Assembly (NCBI GenBank): GCA_001777575.1
Contig: MFEL01000006.1
Span: 1 to 40,322 of the forward strand
Direction: 5' to 3'
Source: Candidatus Doudnabacteria bacterium RIFCSPHIGHO2_01_FULL_46_24
Lineage (GTDB): Bacteria; Patescibacteriota; Doudnabacteria; UBA920; O2-02-FULL-48-8
DNA length: 40,322 nucleotides
The translations under genes and the position numbers were made by a program. The notes beneath the pieces were generated by a model. It was given only the letters and a program-made list of their open reading frames with translations, searched no databases and was not told the DNA's origin. Below are positions 3,606 through 25,922 of the stretch, in pieces. The first letter of the stretch is position 1; the number at the start of each line of letters is the position of its first letter.

Positions 3606-6362
3606 TTATTCTATCCTTTCAAATGGCAAATTTAGGTCATACCAATTTGCCTTAATTATATTGTTCATTTCAAACGATTTGCTAAGCTCTTCAGAAGAAA
3701 AGCCAAATCTTTTGCCGAAGTTTATCACCCAAACTGCCCCGCTGTCGTCTCTTACTAAACTGCCGTCCGGGTGCGGGCCGTTGACTGTATAAACATAGCC
3801 GCCCAATTCATAATCGCTTATGTCCGCGGATACCAGATTGTCAAAGTTATAGCCCAACCCCTTAAAAACCTCCTCGGAAATAAAGCCATACTTTTTGCCG
3901 CCTGTCCCAACGATGTAAACTGTCCGGTTGTCTACGGAGTCCAAAACCAGCGTGCCGTCTTTCAGGCCCGTGCTGGTTCCCAAGACCTTGCCTGGATTAT
4001 ACTCAATGTTAAACTGCCGTTCATTAACCGGCTCATTGTTCCCGGCCTTGTCTACAGAATAATACTTAAAAACCACACTGCCAAATTCCTCAAGCATTAC
4101 CGGTTCCGTATAGGTCTCATAAGGCTTGCCGTTGATTGAATATTTGGTATGCAGAATGCCGGAGCCGGATTTAGAGTCTGACGCAGTCAGCTTGATTGTG
4201 ATTTCCTCATTGCCCGCGGTTTCAATAAAAGTCTGCGGCGGGACAAGATCATCAGAGCCTTCAGCCAGAGTTGAATCAGGCTTAAGTTCAATCGCATGGC
4301 CGCTCCCGCTGTAGTCAAACTTAACTTTGTTCTGATAGAGATCAACGGCTATTTTGCTTGCTTCCGTGATGGCCACGTCATTGAAAACCTGGGAAGAAGT
4401 TACCTCGCCATTGCTGATGTCAGAAATTATCAAATCAAAAACGCCTGCTGCCTCGCCTTTCGCTTGAATAGAGTAGGTATTGCTGTCATCAGTGGGGATA
4501 AATATAAACTTTATACCATCGATAATTTCATAATCAATAATGTTGAGATTATTTTCAAACCCGCCTTCAGATGTTGGGCCAGCGTGATTGTTATTCTGAT
4601 CGTAGATATGGACTTCTACCGGGCTTTTCCAGGTCAGCGATTTTCCTTTGTAGTCGCAAATGTGGGTGCCATTGCTAGTGCTAATTTCATCCAAAGCGGG
4701 CTTGTTGTTCTGTAAGATATCCAGAATCAAAGCCCGAGAACCACTTGGTAATTCGGAATGTTTAACTCCTTTAACGTAAAACTTTTTATCAGAGGCTGTA
4801 TTTACTTGCCTGGCACTCATGAACGGCACAGTTTGGTCGCCAGAAGTATAACCAATACCTGCTATGGGGCTAACAATGGAAGTAAATCGATATCCGGCCT
4901 GGGTATTTGTGCCGCAGCCTGTGATATTGTAAACATCAATGCCACTTAGATCCAATTCAGAGAGCGCTTGAGCTTCCTGGGCCTGGTCAAGGAGGTAAGT
5001 ATTAACATTTTTATTTTTGAGAAAATCCCGCGTCCAATCATAATCCAGCATGTAAGGCGTTTGCCAGCGTTCGGCTGATAAATTAATGTAACCGGTGAAC
5101 AGCTCGAAATATTTCCGGTTTGGCAGCAACTGATAAATCGATGGCATGTTCAAACTTAACTGCTTCATGGTTTCTTTATTGAGCAAGTTTAACGGAATAT
5201 CAATGTCTCCCTCTAGCAAAACTTTAGCGGCCTTGGGTGCACCAAGATGAGGTGTGCCGACAAAGATGAGTTTGTTGATCTGGTCTGAGCCTTTTTTGTT
5301 GATGTAATCTTTGACCAATAGACCACCCATGCTGTGAGCTACTATGTCTATCTTATGAAAGCCTTTTTTGTTTTTGTTGATTATTTTATCCAACAATTCG
5401 ATATTTTTATCAAAGTCCAATCTCCAATCATAAGGGAAAATAAAATAATTTTCTCCACTTATATAGTTATTATTTTTCAAGTCTGATATCAAAGCGTCAA
5501 AAATATTAACATCAAAAAAAGGTGTCGGAAAATTTATTTTTCTAATTATATCACCTGATATTACATTTTTTACCGAATTCCCTTTCTCATCCAAAGCCAG
5601 ACTATTTGTTAAAAATTTATCTTTCGCATTAAATGCAGTGCCCAACTTTCCTGGCGGCCAAACGAGTTCCCCATTCTCATAAAGCTCGCTCCCTGTTATC
5701 CCCGGGATAATCAGGATTGGCCTTAGGCCTTCCGGTTCGGGGAGGTCCTCGGGGTTTTGCTTCTTGGTTTCAAAAAAGCTTGGCGGCGGGGCGGCTCCTT
5801 CTGGCTCAGGTTCAGGAATAGGATCAGCCGCGGGATTGGCAAGACTATCCATGTCAATGAGGTACGTGTACGTATCAAAAGTACTGCCGTTGACCCCGTC
5901 CCAGACGTCAAAGCCGATAAGATAGCCGGGAAGCCAATGGATGGAACTGGATTCCTCGCTGTTAAACTGCAGCTGGTCTGTGGCTTTGGTGTAAGTGATG
6001 GTGTTGAGGCCGGCCTGGATTGCGGGCGAGGAGTCGCCATAGATTACTGCGCAGGAACTGTTGAGGACATAAACTTTGAAGATGGCCGTGGCATCAGGGG
6101 TAAACAGCAGCTGCGGCTTGAAAGTCACCACCTCGCCTGTTTCGGAGACAAAGTCGTTGTTGTTGGGGCCAAACTTGAAGGCTTTGGTGCCGTCTTCGGC
6201 CGACTCGCTGTCGCCGATGTGGTTTAATTCCGCCCACTGCGTATCGCAGGAGGTAGTGGGAAGAGTGACTGTGGCGGCGGCGTGATTGGGAAAAACAAAA
6301 ATCGCGCCAAAGACAAGCGCGAAGGTTAAAACAAAAAAAGCTTTTCTGATATCCGAAAACAT
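3606..6362 (-). CDS. Secreted LCAT/PGAP1-like alpha/beta-hydrolase (lipase) with C-terminal KYGF-type surface repeats
   Basis: RPILIIPGITGSELYENGELVWP, DIVAHSMGGLLVKDYI (GxSxG), LIFVGTPHLGAPKAAK; signal peptide at MFSDIRKAFFVLTFALVFG, so the start is probably 6362 rather than 6482. Confidence 0.85.
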   Translation of the reverse strand: MFSDIRKAFFVLTFALVFGAIFVFPNHAAATVTLPTTSCDTQWAELNHIGDSESAEDGTKAFKFGPNNNDFVSETGEVVTFKPQLLFTPDATAIFKVYVLNSSCAVIYGDSSPAIQAGLNTITYTKATDQLQFNSEESSSIHWLPGYLIGFDVWDGVNGSTFDTYTYLIDMDSLANPAADPIPEPEPEGAAPPPSFFETKKQNPEDLPEPEGLRPILIIPGITGSELYENGELVWPPGKLGTAFNAKDKFLTNSLALDEKGNSVKNVISGDIIRKINFPTPFFDVNIFDALISDLKNNNYISGENYFIFPYDWRLDFDKNIELLDKIINKNKKGFHKIDIVAHSMGGLLVKDYINKKGSDQINKLIFVGTPHLGAPKAAKVLLEGDIDIPLNLLNKETMKQLSLNMPSIYQLLPNRKYFELFTGYINLSAERWQTPYMLDYDWTRDFLKNKNVNTYLLDQAQEAQALSELDLSGIDVYNITGCGTNTQAGYRFTSIVSPIAGIGYTSGDQTVPFMSARQVNTASDKKFYVKGVKHSELPSGSRALILDILQNNKPALDEISTSNGTHICDYKGKSLTWKSPVEVHIYDQNNNHAGPTSEGGFENNLNIIDYEIIDGIKFIFIPTDDSNTYSIQAKGEAAGVFDLIISDISNGEVTSSQVFNDVAITEASKIAVDLYQNKVKFDYSGSGHAIELKPDSTLAEGSDDLVPPQTFIETAGNEEITIKLTASDSKSGSGILHTKYSINGKPYETYTEPVMLEEFGSVVFKYYSVDKAGNNEPVNERQFNIEYNPGKVLGTSTGLKDGTLVLDSVDNRTVYIVGTGGKKYGFISEEVFKGLGYNFDNLVSADISDYELGGYVYTVNGPHPDGSLVRDDSGAVWVINFGKRFGFSSEELSKSFEMNNIIKANWYDLNLPFERIE

Positions 6363-6618: not shown

Positions 6619-6762
6619 TTATATCTCAACTTTCACGCCGACTTTTTCTCCGACTTCTTTAGCCCACTCTACGAGTTTCTCTAATCTTTCTTTCCGCAAA
6701 CGTCGTTCTTCAAGCCTTTCTTGATTTTTCGCCGAGAAAAAATTTGTTGATTTTAGTTCCAT
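6619..6762 (-). CDS. 47-aa coiled-coil micro-protein
   Basis: Reverse-strand ORF MELKSTNFFSAKNQERLEERRLRKERLEKLVEWAKEVGEKVGVKVEI*, shorter than the ORF-track cut-off; shares the WAKxVGxKVG tail with paralogs. Confidence 0.65.
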   Translation of the reverse strand: MELKSTNFFSAKNQERLEERRLRKERLEKLVEWAKEVGEKVGVKVEI

Positions 6763-6776
6763 AAAAATTTGATTAA

Positions 6777-7073
6777 TTATAATTTAGGCTTTAGCCCTAC
6801 TTTATCCCCAACCATTTTTGCCCAATCTTCCAATTTTTCCACTTGTTTCTTTTCGGCTAGCTGAGCAACAACATTATCCACGCCCTCCATGACTGTTTCA
6901 AAACCCTCGTACATATAATCCTTAAGATTATGCTCCATTTCCTTTAACTCAACCTTTGTGGCCAGCGGGGCCATTCGGGTATCCAAAAGCTCCCCGATCC
7001 TATCTAAATCGCTCGTAGTCAACGCGCCGCCTTTTGCTGTCTTTGTTTTCATGGCTTTTCTTTCTGCCGCCAT
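6777..7073 (-). CDS. Coiled-coil protein paralogous to 1240..1452
   Basis: LKDYMYEGFETVMEGVDNVVAQLAEKKQVEKLEDWAKMVGDKVGLKPKL; close DNA identity to 1240..1452 over the GFETVMEGVDN region. Confidence 0.7.
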   Translation of the reverse strand: MAAERKAMKTKTAKGGALTTSDLDRIGELLDTRMAPLATKVELKEMEHNLKDYMYEGFETVMEGVDNVVAQLAEKKQVEKLEDWAKMVGDKVGLKPKL

Positions 7074-18818: not shown

Positions 18819-18854
18819 ATTCTATAATAATTGCGATCGCAATTATTATAGAAT
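18819..18854. promoter_or_regulatory. 36-nt perfect palindrome centred on GCGATCGC, possible operator
   Basis: attctataataattgcgatcgcaattattatagaat. Confidence 0.6.
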
Positions 18855-18880
18855 AAATTTAAGCTGCAAAATTTCAGCTG

Positions 18881-19438
18881 TCAACTTAGTAAACCAAACT
18901 TCTTCAGCAAATAACTCTCCCCCTCCAGCCTTTCGGCAACTGCCAGTTTTACAAACGGCCTGATCTCATACATTTCTTTGAGAAAATCCGTTTCATCCTC
19001 GCAGTCATAAGGCCAGACCCAGACGCTTTTTTGCATAGGCGCAAAGCCAAGCTCCTTAAGCTTTTCAACAAACACCGTTCTGTTGACTTTGTACTTCTCT
19101 GGAATATCAAACATCACCATTCGCCACTTTCGGTCCCACTTCTTTGGCCGGCTCATCTTCATGTCTTCTAACTTATATTTTAGCAATTTTGCCTTGCCGG
19201 CCTGCGTAAGCTTGATAACCGTTTTGCCGCCTTCTTGGCCAATACCGATGATCTTTTTGCTTTTTAGATAATATAAGCCTCCCGCAATCTGCCTTTTATT
19301 AAACCTGCCAGCGGGTTTATAGAATTGAGCAAAAACCTGCACAGCATTGGGAGCGGCGATGGCAACGACAATCAAAGCCGCTACGCCGAGCGCACAGATT
19401 ATAGCCTTCGCTATGTCTTGGTTTTTAACTCTTGCCAT
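18881..19438 (-). CDS. PaaX/Cas2-like-domain regulator with N-terminal TM segment and winged-helix-like region
   Basis: KWRMVMFDIPEKYKVNRTVFVEKLKELGFAPMQKSVWVWPYDCEDETDFLKEMYEI resembles the PaaX central (Cas2-like ferredoxin) domain; N-terminal IICALGVAALIVVAIAAP TM. Confidence 0.65.
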   Translation of the reverse strand: MARVKNQDIAKAIICALGVAALIVVAIAAPNAVQVFAQFYKPAGRFNKRQIAGGLYYLKSKKIIGIGQEGGKTVIKLTQAGKAKLLKYKLEDMKMSRPKKWDRKWRMVMFDIPEKYKVNRTVFVEKLKELGFAPMQKSVWVWPYDCEDETDFLKEMYEIRPFVKLAVAERLEGESYLLKKFGLLS

Positions 19439-19456
19439 TTATTTTTATTCTATTCC

Positions 19457-19472
19457 TATTGCGATCGCAATA
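19457..19472. promoter_or_regulatory. GCGATCGC-centred palindrome upstream of the PaaX-like gene
   Basis: tattgcgatcgcaata, about 19 bp upstream of the start at 19438. Confidence 0.55.
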
Positions 19473-19485
19473 TTTATAAAATAAT

Positions 19486-20343: not shown

Positions 20344-20424
20344 CCCCGTCATCTGCCGACGAACAGGAGAGGTTAGCCTGAATGAGTTAACAATCAGATC
20401 AACCTTCGTCGGCAGATGACGGGG
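20344..20424. repeat. 20-bp perfect inverted repeat
   Basis: ccccgtcatctgccgacgaa (20344..20363) and ttcgtcggcagatgacgggg (20405..20424). Confidence 0.85.
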
Positions 20425-21248: not shown

Positions 21249-21374
21249 TCACCCATCAACTATTAACTTTCTAAAATCCGCTCCTCTGCTCTTCACCATC
21301 ATACAGGAATGTATGACTGTGCAGGACGCGGTCATAACAACGATGCCGATCATCACGAGGAACAGCTTACGCAT
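21249..21374 (-). CDS. Putative 41-aa exported/lipoprotein-like micro-protein
   Basis: MRKLFLVMIGIVVMTASCTVIHSCMMVKSRGADFRKLIVDG*; purine-rich SD; overlaps hairpin element H1, so coding status is uncertain. Confidence 0.35.
   Translation of the reverse strand: MRKLFLVMIGIVVMTASCTVIHSCMMVKSRGADFRKLIVDG
21278..21325 (-). ncRNA. Hairpin element H, copy 1
   Basis: Shares the 31-nt string caccatcatacaggaatgtatgactgtgcag with copy 2. Confidence 0.45.
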
Positions 21375-21412
21375 ACTCACCTCACGCGCACTTAAGCGCA
21401 AAAAGAACTGTT

Positions 21413-21540
21413 CCTTCCACAACTCTGGGTATTTGCTTAGTGAACTCTGAAGAGCAGTTGTACTGAATTAATCTCTTGCCTGCCCGCCGAAGCTTTAGCA
21501 CAGGCGGGTTGACTTAGAAACGCCCAGAATCGTGGAAATC
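21413..21540 (-). ncRNA. Structured RNA element, copy A, containing an inserted palindrome
   Basis: Helix arms 21415..21434 and 21518..21537: minus RNA UUCCACGAUUCUGGGCGUUU / AAAUACCCAGAGUUGUGGAA, 19/20 paired including G.U. Confidence 0.7.
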
Positions 21541-21610
21541 AGCCTTCGCCGGGGCTTCGGCTGACTGGCCGCAAATTGACTGCTGATTTTCAAAGGACTA
21601 ATATTATTAC

Positions 21611-21850
21611 ATGAGTGATATAAACTTCAAACCGCTATTTGAATACTTGGATGACATGAAGGCCGAACTCAAGGCTGATATTGCTGAAGTTAAGGAATCT
21701 AATGCCCAAATACTGACGAACCTTGATGGCCTTACAAAAATGGTCAAAACTTTCCAGGAAGAACATATCATCATGCGCAAGCGTCTTGAAGTTCTGGAAG
21801 CCTGGGCCAAAAAAGTTTCGGAAAAAGTCGGCATCCCGCTGCCTTTCTAA
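21611..21850 (+). CDS. Small coiled-coil protein of the WAKxVxEKVG family
   Basis: MSDINFKPLFEYLDDMKAELKADIAEVKESNAQILTNLDGLTKMVKTFQEEHIIMRKRLEVLEAWAKKVSEKVGIPLPF; SD aaagga upstream. Confidence 0.7.
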   Translation: MSDINFKPLFEYLDDMKAELKADIAEVKESNAQILTNLDGLTKMVKTFQEEHIIMRKRLEVLEAWAKKVSEKVGIPLPF

Positions 21851-21865
21851 AAATGCTGCTTACTG

Positions 21866-21890
21866 CCCCGTCGAATGACGGGGTTTTTGT
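21866..21890 (+). terminator. Rho-independent terminator
   Basis: gccccgtcgaatgacggggtttttg. Confidence 0.7.
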
Positions 21891-21905
21891 TTGAAGGGTC
21901 ATATT

Positions 21906-21960
21906 CCGATCCTCTGAGCTCCACCATCATACAGGAATGTATGACTGTGCAGACCAGGGG
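21906..21960 (-). ncRNA. Hairpin element H, copy 2
   Basis: Minus strand CCCCUGGUCUGCACAG(UCAUACA UUCC UGUAUGA)UGGUGGAGCUCAGAGGAUCGG. Confidence 0.5.
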
Positions 21961-22065
21961 AAGGAGCAGTGTTGGCGGGCACTGCTTGCGGTCGCTCTGT
22001 AACGAGCAACCTGGTTGGAAACTTACACCACCGCCAAGCGGTCGAACTTCCTCCTTACAACACAA

Positions 22066-22368
22066 CTACCTAACCGAGTACTGATAGGGGTAGAGATCAT
22101 CCGAAACATACACGAAACGGACACCCCTTTGAGACCACGAGATCTGGGTACAGAATTGCTCACTCTGTCCCCAGTCCCGGATGGGAGTGAGACCGTGACG
22201 GAACGTGGCTTTCGCGCCGATCAGGTAGGATTCACCTTGCTTCATCCTCCCTTCTTCTAACGTCGCGATGACGTGTGTGGCCAACCTGTGGCTCATCCAC
22301 ACGTTGACGCCGAACGACAGCAACGCCGCGACGACGAAAGTGATTCTGCCGAACCTTCGGTAACTCAT
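22066..22368 (-). CDS. Small protein with N-terminal TM/signal, array gene
   Basis: MSYRRFGRITFVVAALLSFGVNVWMSHRLATHVIATLEEGRMKQGESYLIGAKATFRHGLTPIRDW...; SD aGGTGGGT before ATG. Confidence 0.55.
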   Translation of the reverse strand: MSYRRFGRITFVVAALLSFGVNVWMSHRLATHVIATLEEGRMKQGESYLIGAKATFRHGLTPIRDWGQSEQFCTQISWSQRGVRFVYVSDDLYPYQYSVR

Positions 22369-22517
22369 AACCCACCTATTCGCGCAATTTTGCTCATCAT
22401 AGAGCTCAGCGCATAAAGGACCTGTCCGCCTAAAAAACTTGTGAAAGCAGCAGCGGCCGATATTTCACCATGCGCTGCCGGCGCTTATTTCCGCTGCACC
22501 AGCGGTAGGACTGTTGC

Positions 22518-22611
22518 TTCCACAACTCTGGGTATTTGCTTAGAAACTTGTTAGAGCTACAATTACTGAATTTATCTCCTGTTTGACTTAGAAACGCCCA
22601 GAATCGTGGAA
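22518..22611 (-). ncRNA. Structured RNA element, copy B
   Basis: Arms 22518..22537 and 22592..22611, identical to copy A; interior differs. Confidence 0.7.
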
Positions 22612-22682
22612 ATCAGCCTTCGCTCCACCTTCGTCAAACTTCGGCGGACAAGCAAGCTTCGGCTGACAAGCAAATTTCTTGC

Positions 22683-22774
22683 TTCCAAAATGTTAGGCAT
22701 TCAATTGGGTAATATATTCTGCAAAACTTTTTACTAGAAAAAGTACCGCAGACAGAATGCCCAACACCCTGGAA
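22683..22774 (-). ncRNA. Structured RNA element, copy C (divergent, compensatory changes)
   Basis: Arms 22683..22702 and 22755..22774: minus RNA UUCCAGGGUGUUGGGCAUUC / GAAUGCCUAACAUUUUGGAA, 20/20 paired with four G.U. Confidence 0.7.
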
Positions 22775-22822
22775 ACAAAATTATAAATTTACTTAAATAC
22801 TTTACAGTATGTAAGTATTTAT

Positions 22823-22880
22823 CCGATCCTCTGAACTCCACTACAATACAATATAGTAATGTAGTGCAGGTCAGGAGAAG
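22823..22880 (-). ncRNA. Hairpin element H, copy 3
   Basis: Minus strand CUCCUGACCUGCACUACAUUAC...GUAUUGUAGUGGAGUUCAGAGGAUCGG: conserved flanks, different hairpin sequence. Confidence 0.5.
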
Positions 22881-22952
22881 GGGGAGCAGATAAAGCGAAT
22901 ATAAATATTATAAATCGCTGCTCCAGCCTTTGCGGCCCCAAGGGGTCGCGCG

Positions 22953-23237
22953 CTACTTCTCGTCGTAGCACGGGAATCGATCCCGCGCCTTCCACCACGG
23001 TCCCGGCGAACCGTTGAGGTTGCCCATCTTCACACGGTGCTGCGCCAGGATCTCCTGCCGCAGGCGGACCGCCGCCTCGTGGTTGTTGTCCAACAGGATC
23101 GGATCGGGGATCCGATGCCGCGAACGGGCGAATTGGACCGCGGTGCGCCGGGCGGTGAGCAGGTCATGCCCTCTACCCTCAACCGGAACCACCAGATCCG
23201 ACTGACTCCTGGATCCCACATGGAACACTGCTGTCAT
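22953..23237 (-). CDS. Small uncharacterised protein, array gene
   Basis: 94-aa ORF MTAVFHVGSRSQSDLVVPVEGRGHDLLTARRTAVQFARSRHRIPDPILLDNNHEAAVRLRQEIL...; SD AGGAGG; ATGA overlap with the upstream small ORF. Confidence 0.6.
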   Translation of the reverse strand: MTAVFHVGSRSQSDLVVPVEGRGHDLLTARRTAVQFARSRHRIPDPILLDNNHEAAVRLRQEILAQHRVKMGNLNGSPGPWWKARDRFPCYDEK

Positions 23238-23383
23238 CTTGTCCTCCTGACTGGGGTTGTGGCGACGACCGGACTTCCGAGAAAAAACCGGATCGCATCA
23301 GCCAAGCTGTTGCGAAGGCTTTCCCATCGAATCCGATCCTGTCGCCGGGGTTTGTGATTTTTGTTATTGCGGCTGTACCTCAT
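23234..23383 (-). CDS. 49-aa basic micro-protein
   Basis: MRYSRNNKNHKPRRQDRIRWESLRNSLADAIRFFLGSPVVATTPVRRTR*; SD AGGAG directly after RNA copy D; ATGA overlap with next gene. Confidence 0.5.
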   Translation of the reverse strand: MRYSRNNKNHKPRRQDRIRWESLRNSLADAIRFFLGSPVVATTPVRRTR

Positions 23384-23400
23384 CGTCAACTCCTGTATGC

Positions 23401-23491
23401 TTCCACAACTCTGGGTGCTTGCAACTTAGTTGCTAAGAGGGCAATGTTTAGTTTCCCTGCAAAACTAAGACAAACGCCCAGAGCCGTGGAA
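23401..23491 (-). ncRNA. Structured RNA element, copy D
   Basis: Arms 23401..23420 and 23472..23491: minus RNA UUCCACGGCUCUGGGCGUUU / AAGCACCCAGAGUUGUGGAA, 19/20 paired. Confidence 0.7.
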
Positions 23492-23633
23492 ACAAAATAG
23501 CTCCTTTGCAGGAGCCATGTTACGCATTATGTGATACGCGTTACGTGCCAAATCGGTCCTGAACGATTTGAGTACGATTATTGGATTTTTAAGGTTAACG
23601 GGTAAGTATATACCTTTTTGCCGCCGCTGTCAA

Positions 23634-25858: not shown

Positions 25859-25880
25859 AAAAATGCCTAAGGGCATTTTT
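25859..25880 (-). terminator. Hairpin terminator
   Basis: aaaatgcctaagggcattttt. Confidence 0.6.
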
Positions 25881-25889
25881 ATTTTCTAC

Positions 25890-25922
25890 TTGTCCGCCGA
25901 AGCTTTAGCGTGGGCGGAGCAC
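25890..25922. repeat. REP-like palindrome of the CCGCCGAAGCTTTAGC type
   Basis: cttgtccgccgaagctttagcgtgggcggagcac; related to 21480..21510. Confidence 0.65.

Follow-up and report, generated by a model that had tools for sequence, protein, structure and literature searches.

A family of strand-specific hairpin elements, putatively cis-acting RNAs, in small-gene islands of Candidatus Doudnabacteria

Introduction

What kind of element is repeated between the small genes on the minus strand of a Doudnabacteria contig, on which strand does it act, and what might it do for its neighbours? The window, that is, the whole stretch of DNA analysed here, comprises 40,322 nucleotides of contig MFEL01000006.1 from Candidatus Doudnabacteria bacterium RIFCSPHIGHO2_01_FULL_46_24. 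An earlier note, made from sequence alone, had described four paralogous copies as structured RNAs of the minus strand, of no recognised family and located in the leaders of small genes, and this reading is supported by every check run. What the note overlooked is that they make up an array at a conserved locus, which has a promoter and a leader of its own.

Four Structured Elements in the Window

The four copies are confirmed on the minus strand where the note placed them, each matched by the covariance model: element D, the first in the array (23394..23498), element C (22676..22781), element B (22511..22618) and element A (21408..21544), which has a palindromic repeat inserted in its interior. 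Compared with dinucleotide shuffles, the minus strand folds with z scores of -3.6 (A), -4.3 (B), -9.0 (C) and -8.7 (D), and it is better for every copy than the plus strand (-2.5, -1.6, -4.4 and -5.2, respectively). The arms had been said to pair at 19/20 positions in A, B and D and at 20/20 in C. This holds, with a single C x A opposition in A, B and D and none in C, the most divergent of the four, and so does the claim of compensated changes within the helix, where columns 14, 16-19 and 25 vary on one or both sides and pairing is kept. Two further claims hold only in part: the closing helix is longer than the 20 bp described, and the interiors are not simply variable, a nested inner helix being retained in most copies. 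No further copies beyond A-D were found in the 847-kb genome.

The palindromic repeat inside element A (GCCCGCCGAAGCTTTAGC..GGCGGG, window 21482-21508) also occurs at window 25878-25917, and similar insertions interrupt elements in L034 and in other genomes.

Distribution of the Family

The search of Patescibacteria that the earlier note had suggested yields homologues that keep the pairing, both in other genera and in other families. A first covariance model, built from the four window copies, matches the element in other genera of the family f1. A second model, built from 28 copies, has matches in 10/14 f1 genomes and in 4/4 genomes of a second family, f4, and across 380 genomes of the phylum it matches only in these two families. 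The total stands at 35 copies in the 10/14 f1 genomes and f4. The four f1 genomes without the element have a completeness of 82% or less, and every f1 genome of 86% or more carries it. Copy number reaches seven in one genome (G001), is one in another (G009) and lies between two and four in most others; the strong copies of each f1 genome share one locus and one strand.

A divergent form was first met as weak matches in two Doudnabacteria loci and one genome of the family f2. A model built from three divergent copies detects one such copy each in 10/22 f2 genomes, and it cross-detects an f1 copy (E 1e-3), which links the divergent form to the f1 models. As far as searched, with the f1/f4-type model across the phylum, the family is confined to Candidatus Doudnabacteria and does not extend to Patescibacteria at large. 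Weak extra model matches occur in the f4 genome G020, at L044:8566-8636, where an SD-led ORF follows, and at L065:6093-6198.

The claim that the copies match no recognisable RNA family held: no Rfam 15 family matches the element at gathering scores, permissive thresholds give chance-level matches only, and the Rfam matches obtained otherwise are tRNAs and two SAM riboswitches elsewhere. The open literature searched contains no bearing paper on structured RNAs of Patescibacteria/Doudnabacteria or on integrons of the candidate phyla radiation. Going by these two sources the family is undescribed; the general kind of RNA is already known, and its repeated arrangement is unusual.

Architecture, Covariation and Strand

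Each element consists of a single long, imperfect hairpin, about 100 bases in length. Its outer helix, P1, has the consensus TTGTTTCCAC-N-ATTCTGGG-N-NCTTA / TAAG-N-N-CCCAGAAT-N-GTGGAAGCAA and measures about 24 bp once relatives are aligned. As judged by eye, a GGG/CCC block and a CUUA/UAAG block are parted in f1 and f2 by the C x A opposition, which is replaced by a C-G pair in f4 and copy C and by a U-A pair in one f1 subtype; the opposition is present in two of the three element subtypes. Inward of the CUUA/UAAG block (again by eye) come a 3'-side bulge, a 4-bp GC-rich helix and an apical loop or hairpin. The inner helix of most copies is of the type AGC-AGGG / CCCU-CAAA-GC, nested and with a 3' bulge.

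In the 28 f1/f4 copies, 86.7% of P1 cells are paired against 37-48% with the partners slid, double compensatory changes are found in 18/24 pairs, and double-change cells number 69 against 22.9 in shuffles. RNAalifold recovers the P1 helix unaided. The f2 form (10 copies) behaves similarly, with 89.6% of cells paired (32-53% when slid), double changes in 17/31 pairs (9.6 when shuffled) and 36 double-change cells (13.1 when shuffled). Compensatory change thus exceeds both the shuffled and the slid controls. These counts are uncorrected for relatedness or for paralogy within arrays, and the structures were derived from the same sequences. P1 is the most strictly kept part, since two copies that have lost the interior retain it (L034 9715-9772 and L039 9835-9893) and several tolerate a palindrome inserted within them.

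A DNA inverted repeat without strand-specific selection is expected to show G-U and A-C oppositions in roughly equal numbers. On the coding strand, the P1 cells of the 28 copies contain 83 G-U against 27 A-C; the former are spread over 16 columns and 24/28 sequences, the latter over 2 columns and 3 sequences. This excess indicates that the folded coding strand is under selection. The covariance model also scores higher on the coding strand than on the opposite one.

Two finer features were considered and rejected. Pairing of the UAGCAGGG loop with GCCCU as a pseudoknot was dropped: UUGAUU/AAUCAA covaries to UUGGUU/AACCAA in the nested helix, and the alternative partner GCCCU shows no change matching that from UUGAUU to UUGGUU (both by eye). 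A CsrA-type site (ANGGA), noted inside some subtypes, fails because base pairing occupies its GGA and the motif is missing from type III copies.

A Conserved Island with One Promoter

In islands with covered flanks the f1 elements are flanked by groES-groEL on one side and by rpmF-nusB on the other; the island of G007 differs on its groEL side. The f2 copies in L082 and L087 occupy this same groES-groEL to rpmF-nusB locus, and the f4 copies examined are located elsewhere. The window array is headed by a perfect promoter match, TTGACA-N17-TATACT (23605..23633, minus strand). The same promoter, or a version one base off, lies upstream of the first element in 9/10 f1 islands compared, and it is also present in f2 islands. 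Between the elements of the window array neither a further strong promoter nor a terminator was found.

The promoter is followed by a leader hairpin with the loop UUCAGGAC (23549..23570, minus strand), which can be aligned in f1 heads; its stem varies with compensation, and the loop motif CAGGA is retained in 10/10 of them. Directly 5' of element D lies a terminator-like hairpin, GGCUCCUGCAAAGGAGC, and then a U-rich stretch (23499..23517, minus strand). Most f1 islands have such a hairpin before the first element, with its U-run abutting that element. The UCCUG of this hairpin is complementary to the CAGGA of the leader loop, and the two motifs vary jointly, ACAGGA with UCCUGU and UUCAGGAC with GUCCUG (by eye, in few sequences). 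In f2 islands a longer conserved leader RNA, for which Rfam has no match, separates the promoter from the element.

The core of this f2 leader reads CAUGCUCCUGAUUUCGUUAAACCGGAUUGGGGGC...AAAGCCGUA...UUCUCCUGUAU...UACGGUUUU at L164:4723-5090 (plus strand), and the region is also found in L159, L160, L161, L162, L165 and L166. The f1 array heads resemble a short version of it. At the other end of the island, just before rpmF, a perfect 20-bp inverted repeat, CCCCGTCATCTGCCGACGAA (window 20344-20424), might mark the end of the island transcript.

Small Genes and a Second Hairpin Family

Four small ORFs of the window array, all on the minus strand, illustrate the gene content. The first (49 aa, 23234..23383) has the Shine-Dalgarno (SD) sequence AGGAG and begins 10 nt past element D. 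The second (94 aa, 22953..23237) belongs to an orphan family common to L035 and L036, where it has a similar position, and the third (100 aa, 22066..22368) has a hydrophobic N-terminal stretch. The last, a lipoprotein-like ORF (41 aa, 21249..21374), overlaps hairpin E1 and would measure 50 aa if begun at a TTG in the same frame, 6 nt past element A. ORF calls were heuristic, and some will be wrong.

The ORFs of the islands are small and nearly all without a family match. Among 72 scanned, the best Pfam matches are those of single members to FliL, DUF3228 and zf-HC2, and the only others are one FliL in NCBIfam and one weak PHROG. Gene content turns over strongly from genus to genus, and one gene of 94-98 aa near the head is common to three islands. 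An SD-led start lies at most 60 nt past the element in 17/35 copies; for random positions of these islands the share is 17%. An origin of the small genes in phages or defence systems was rejected, with zero PADLOC matches and the single weak PHROG among the 72 ORFs; the element pattern was also searched for in viral contigs and has no match there.

The interval between E2 and A contains, on the strand opposite to the array, a 79-aa coiled-coil-like ORF (window 21611-21850, plus strand). A related stretch is antisense in the island of L034, and window 6637-6675 holds a similar fragment.

The islands also contain a second hairpin family, E. The window has three members on the minus strand, E3 (22816..22892, 35 nt upstream of element C), E2 (21899..21974) and E1 (21272..21348), and four other islands (L034, L036, L038 and L039) have six. 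All are on the array strand, and the family shows compensatory changes of its own. In 6/9 cases the hairpin ends 35-151 nt before the next element; one of the nine lies 355 nt before it, with an antisense gene between.

A Cis-Acting RNA and Its Putative Role

The family, the strand-specific structure, the array and the setting are shown by these results. The nature of the selected molecule is inferred, as there are no transcript data. The G-U asymmetry, joined by the direction of the promoter and by the SD-led starts, makes RNA the most likely nature of the folded single strand; single-stranded DNA is not formally excluded. The same asymmetry, together with the shared promoter and the SD-led starts downstream of elements, supports the claim that the minus strand is the functional one in the window. 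With the same reservation about transcripts, there is little doubt that these elements constitute a new cis-acting RNA family. The best reading of their place is that of a 5'-UTR/intercistronic element in an operon of small orphan genes served by one strong promoter behind groEL, transcription itself being inferred.

In the mechanism proposed here, every element within the operon transcript would fold into an extended RNA duplex, which would be bound or cut, RNase III being the obvious candidate. The next cistron would be left with a stable 5' hairpin near its Shine-Dalgarno sequence, and the E hairpin, where present, would cap the end of the preceding one. The element may in this way shield each message, and keep it apart from the others, within an operon of quickly changing genes. 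The closing duplex between cistrons comprises 17-26 bp (-15 to -39 kcal/mol), and the arrangement of E as a 3' cap followed by the element as a 5' hairpin speaks for processing. RNase III is encoded in 14/14 genomes tested, which is permissive evidence only.

Several points weigh against processing. RNase III needs no such sequence conservation as P1 shows, and the inner helix and 3' bulge exceed the needs of a plain processing site and would suit the binding of a protein or ligand. No SD-led ORF lies within 60 nt of about half of the elements. The terminator-like hairpin before the first element leaves room for the array being transcribed only under some condition. Processing by RNase III, or protection of the 5' end, is the favoured mechanism; it is inferred, cutting has not been shown, and it is somewhat less likely than not to be right. 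The new cis-acting family and the processing mechanism taken jointly, and loosely read, could as well prove right as wrong.

A close parallel is found in RNase III intercistronic hairpins, for example those of the phage T7 early transcript, which are likewise long imperfect duplexes between small cistrons with a ribosome-binding site closely downstream. By contrast, the Doudnabacteria element conserves both sequence and pairing across genera and has a conserved inner helix and bulge, and its cutting is not shown.

Alternative Explanations

The main rival, which remains possible, is a regulatory leader, in which the inner helix and bulge would bind a ligand or protein and switch each small gene or the operon as a whole. 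It is supported by an inner architecture conserved in three subtypes, by elements just upstream of start codons, and by the attenuator-like head of the array, where the UCCUG of the terminator-like hairpin could pair with the CAGGA loop. However, the window array has no terminator between elements and no evident fold that would sequester an SD sequence, and two copies lack the interior, which in others is interrupted. An operon with as many as seven similar switches would be unusual, and the downstream genes have no common recognisable function. The riboswitch and leader families of Rfam 15 are similarly structured 5' leader RNAs with covariation near start codons, but none matches at gathering or permissive thresholds, and no expression platform is found within the array.

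Less well supported, and unlikely, is the view that the copies are stand-alone ncRNA genes or REP/MITE-like repeats without a role for the neighbouring genes. The copies are indeed paralogous, and mobile-looking palindromic repeats are inserted in and near them. However, each f1 genome has its strong copies together in a single island, all on the same strand, the locus is conserved between genera, and viral contigs give no match to the pattern. REP, BIME and MITE palindromes also occur as paralogous palindromes between genes, whereas the element is limited to one locus and one strand and is conserved by descent across genera.

An integron-like cassette array, in which the hairpins would be single-strand DNA recombination sites, the promoter would act as Pc and the orphan genes would be cassettes, is very unlikely. 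Integron attC arrays share with the islands small same-strand orphan genes, a single promoter and imperfect palindromes with conserved ends. The site length (58-160 nt), the one promoter at the head and the strong gene turnover between genera also fit. However, the attC boxes RYYYAAC ... GTTRRRY occur in only 1/35 copies, and there in reversed order, so that the element has no ordered R'/R'' boxes and the attC check of the earlier note is negative. Tyrosine recombinases are absent from the carriers G001 (seven copies), G005 (a single-contig genome) and G009, serine recombinases from G001, G003, G004 and G006, and the Y1 transposase from G002, G003, G005 and G006. No tested recombinase class can serve all arrays, because G001 lacks the tyrosine and serine types, G003 the serine type and Y1, and G005 the tyrosine type and Y1; an integrase common to the carriers does not exist among them. 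The element is also single-copy in f2 genomes, selection on its structure acts on the coding strand, G-U pairs included, and the first gene and several element subtypes hold their position across genera. An attC identity is thus rejected on boxes and on recombinases. The bolder idea of a gene-capture system of the Doudnabacteria, in which orphan-gene cassettes served by a single promoter meet at structured single-strand sites of a novel, non-attC kind, used by a recombinase as yet unrecognised, is very unlikely as well.

Significance and Further Features of the Window

The elements represent a class-specific family with strong covariation, most likely of RNA, in bacteria whose RNA biology has hardly been explored. 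The element marks a conserved, promoter-driven operon of small, quickly changing orphan proteins that are often hydrophobic at the N-terminus. If the intercistronic role is true, such an operon could swap genes while its other genes stay expressed, and the element would be a sequence handle for finding and testing the proteins. In an epibiont such proteins might work on the surface or on the host cell. The leader of this operon holds a second conserved RNA with no Rfam match, which makes the locus more interesting still.

Elsewhere in the window, two pairs of segments about 6 kb apart are 92-96% alike (1-300 / 6030-6329 and 1276-1331 / 6873-6928), a pattern that may reflect a recent duplication. 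AT-rich palindromes with GCGATCGC centres form an inverted pair (18819-18874 and 19427-19482) that flanks a 185-aa ORF (18881-19438).
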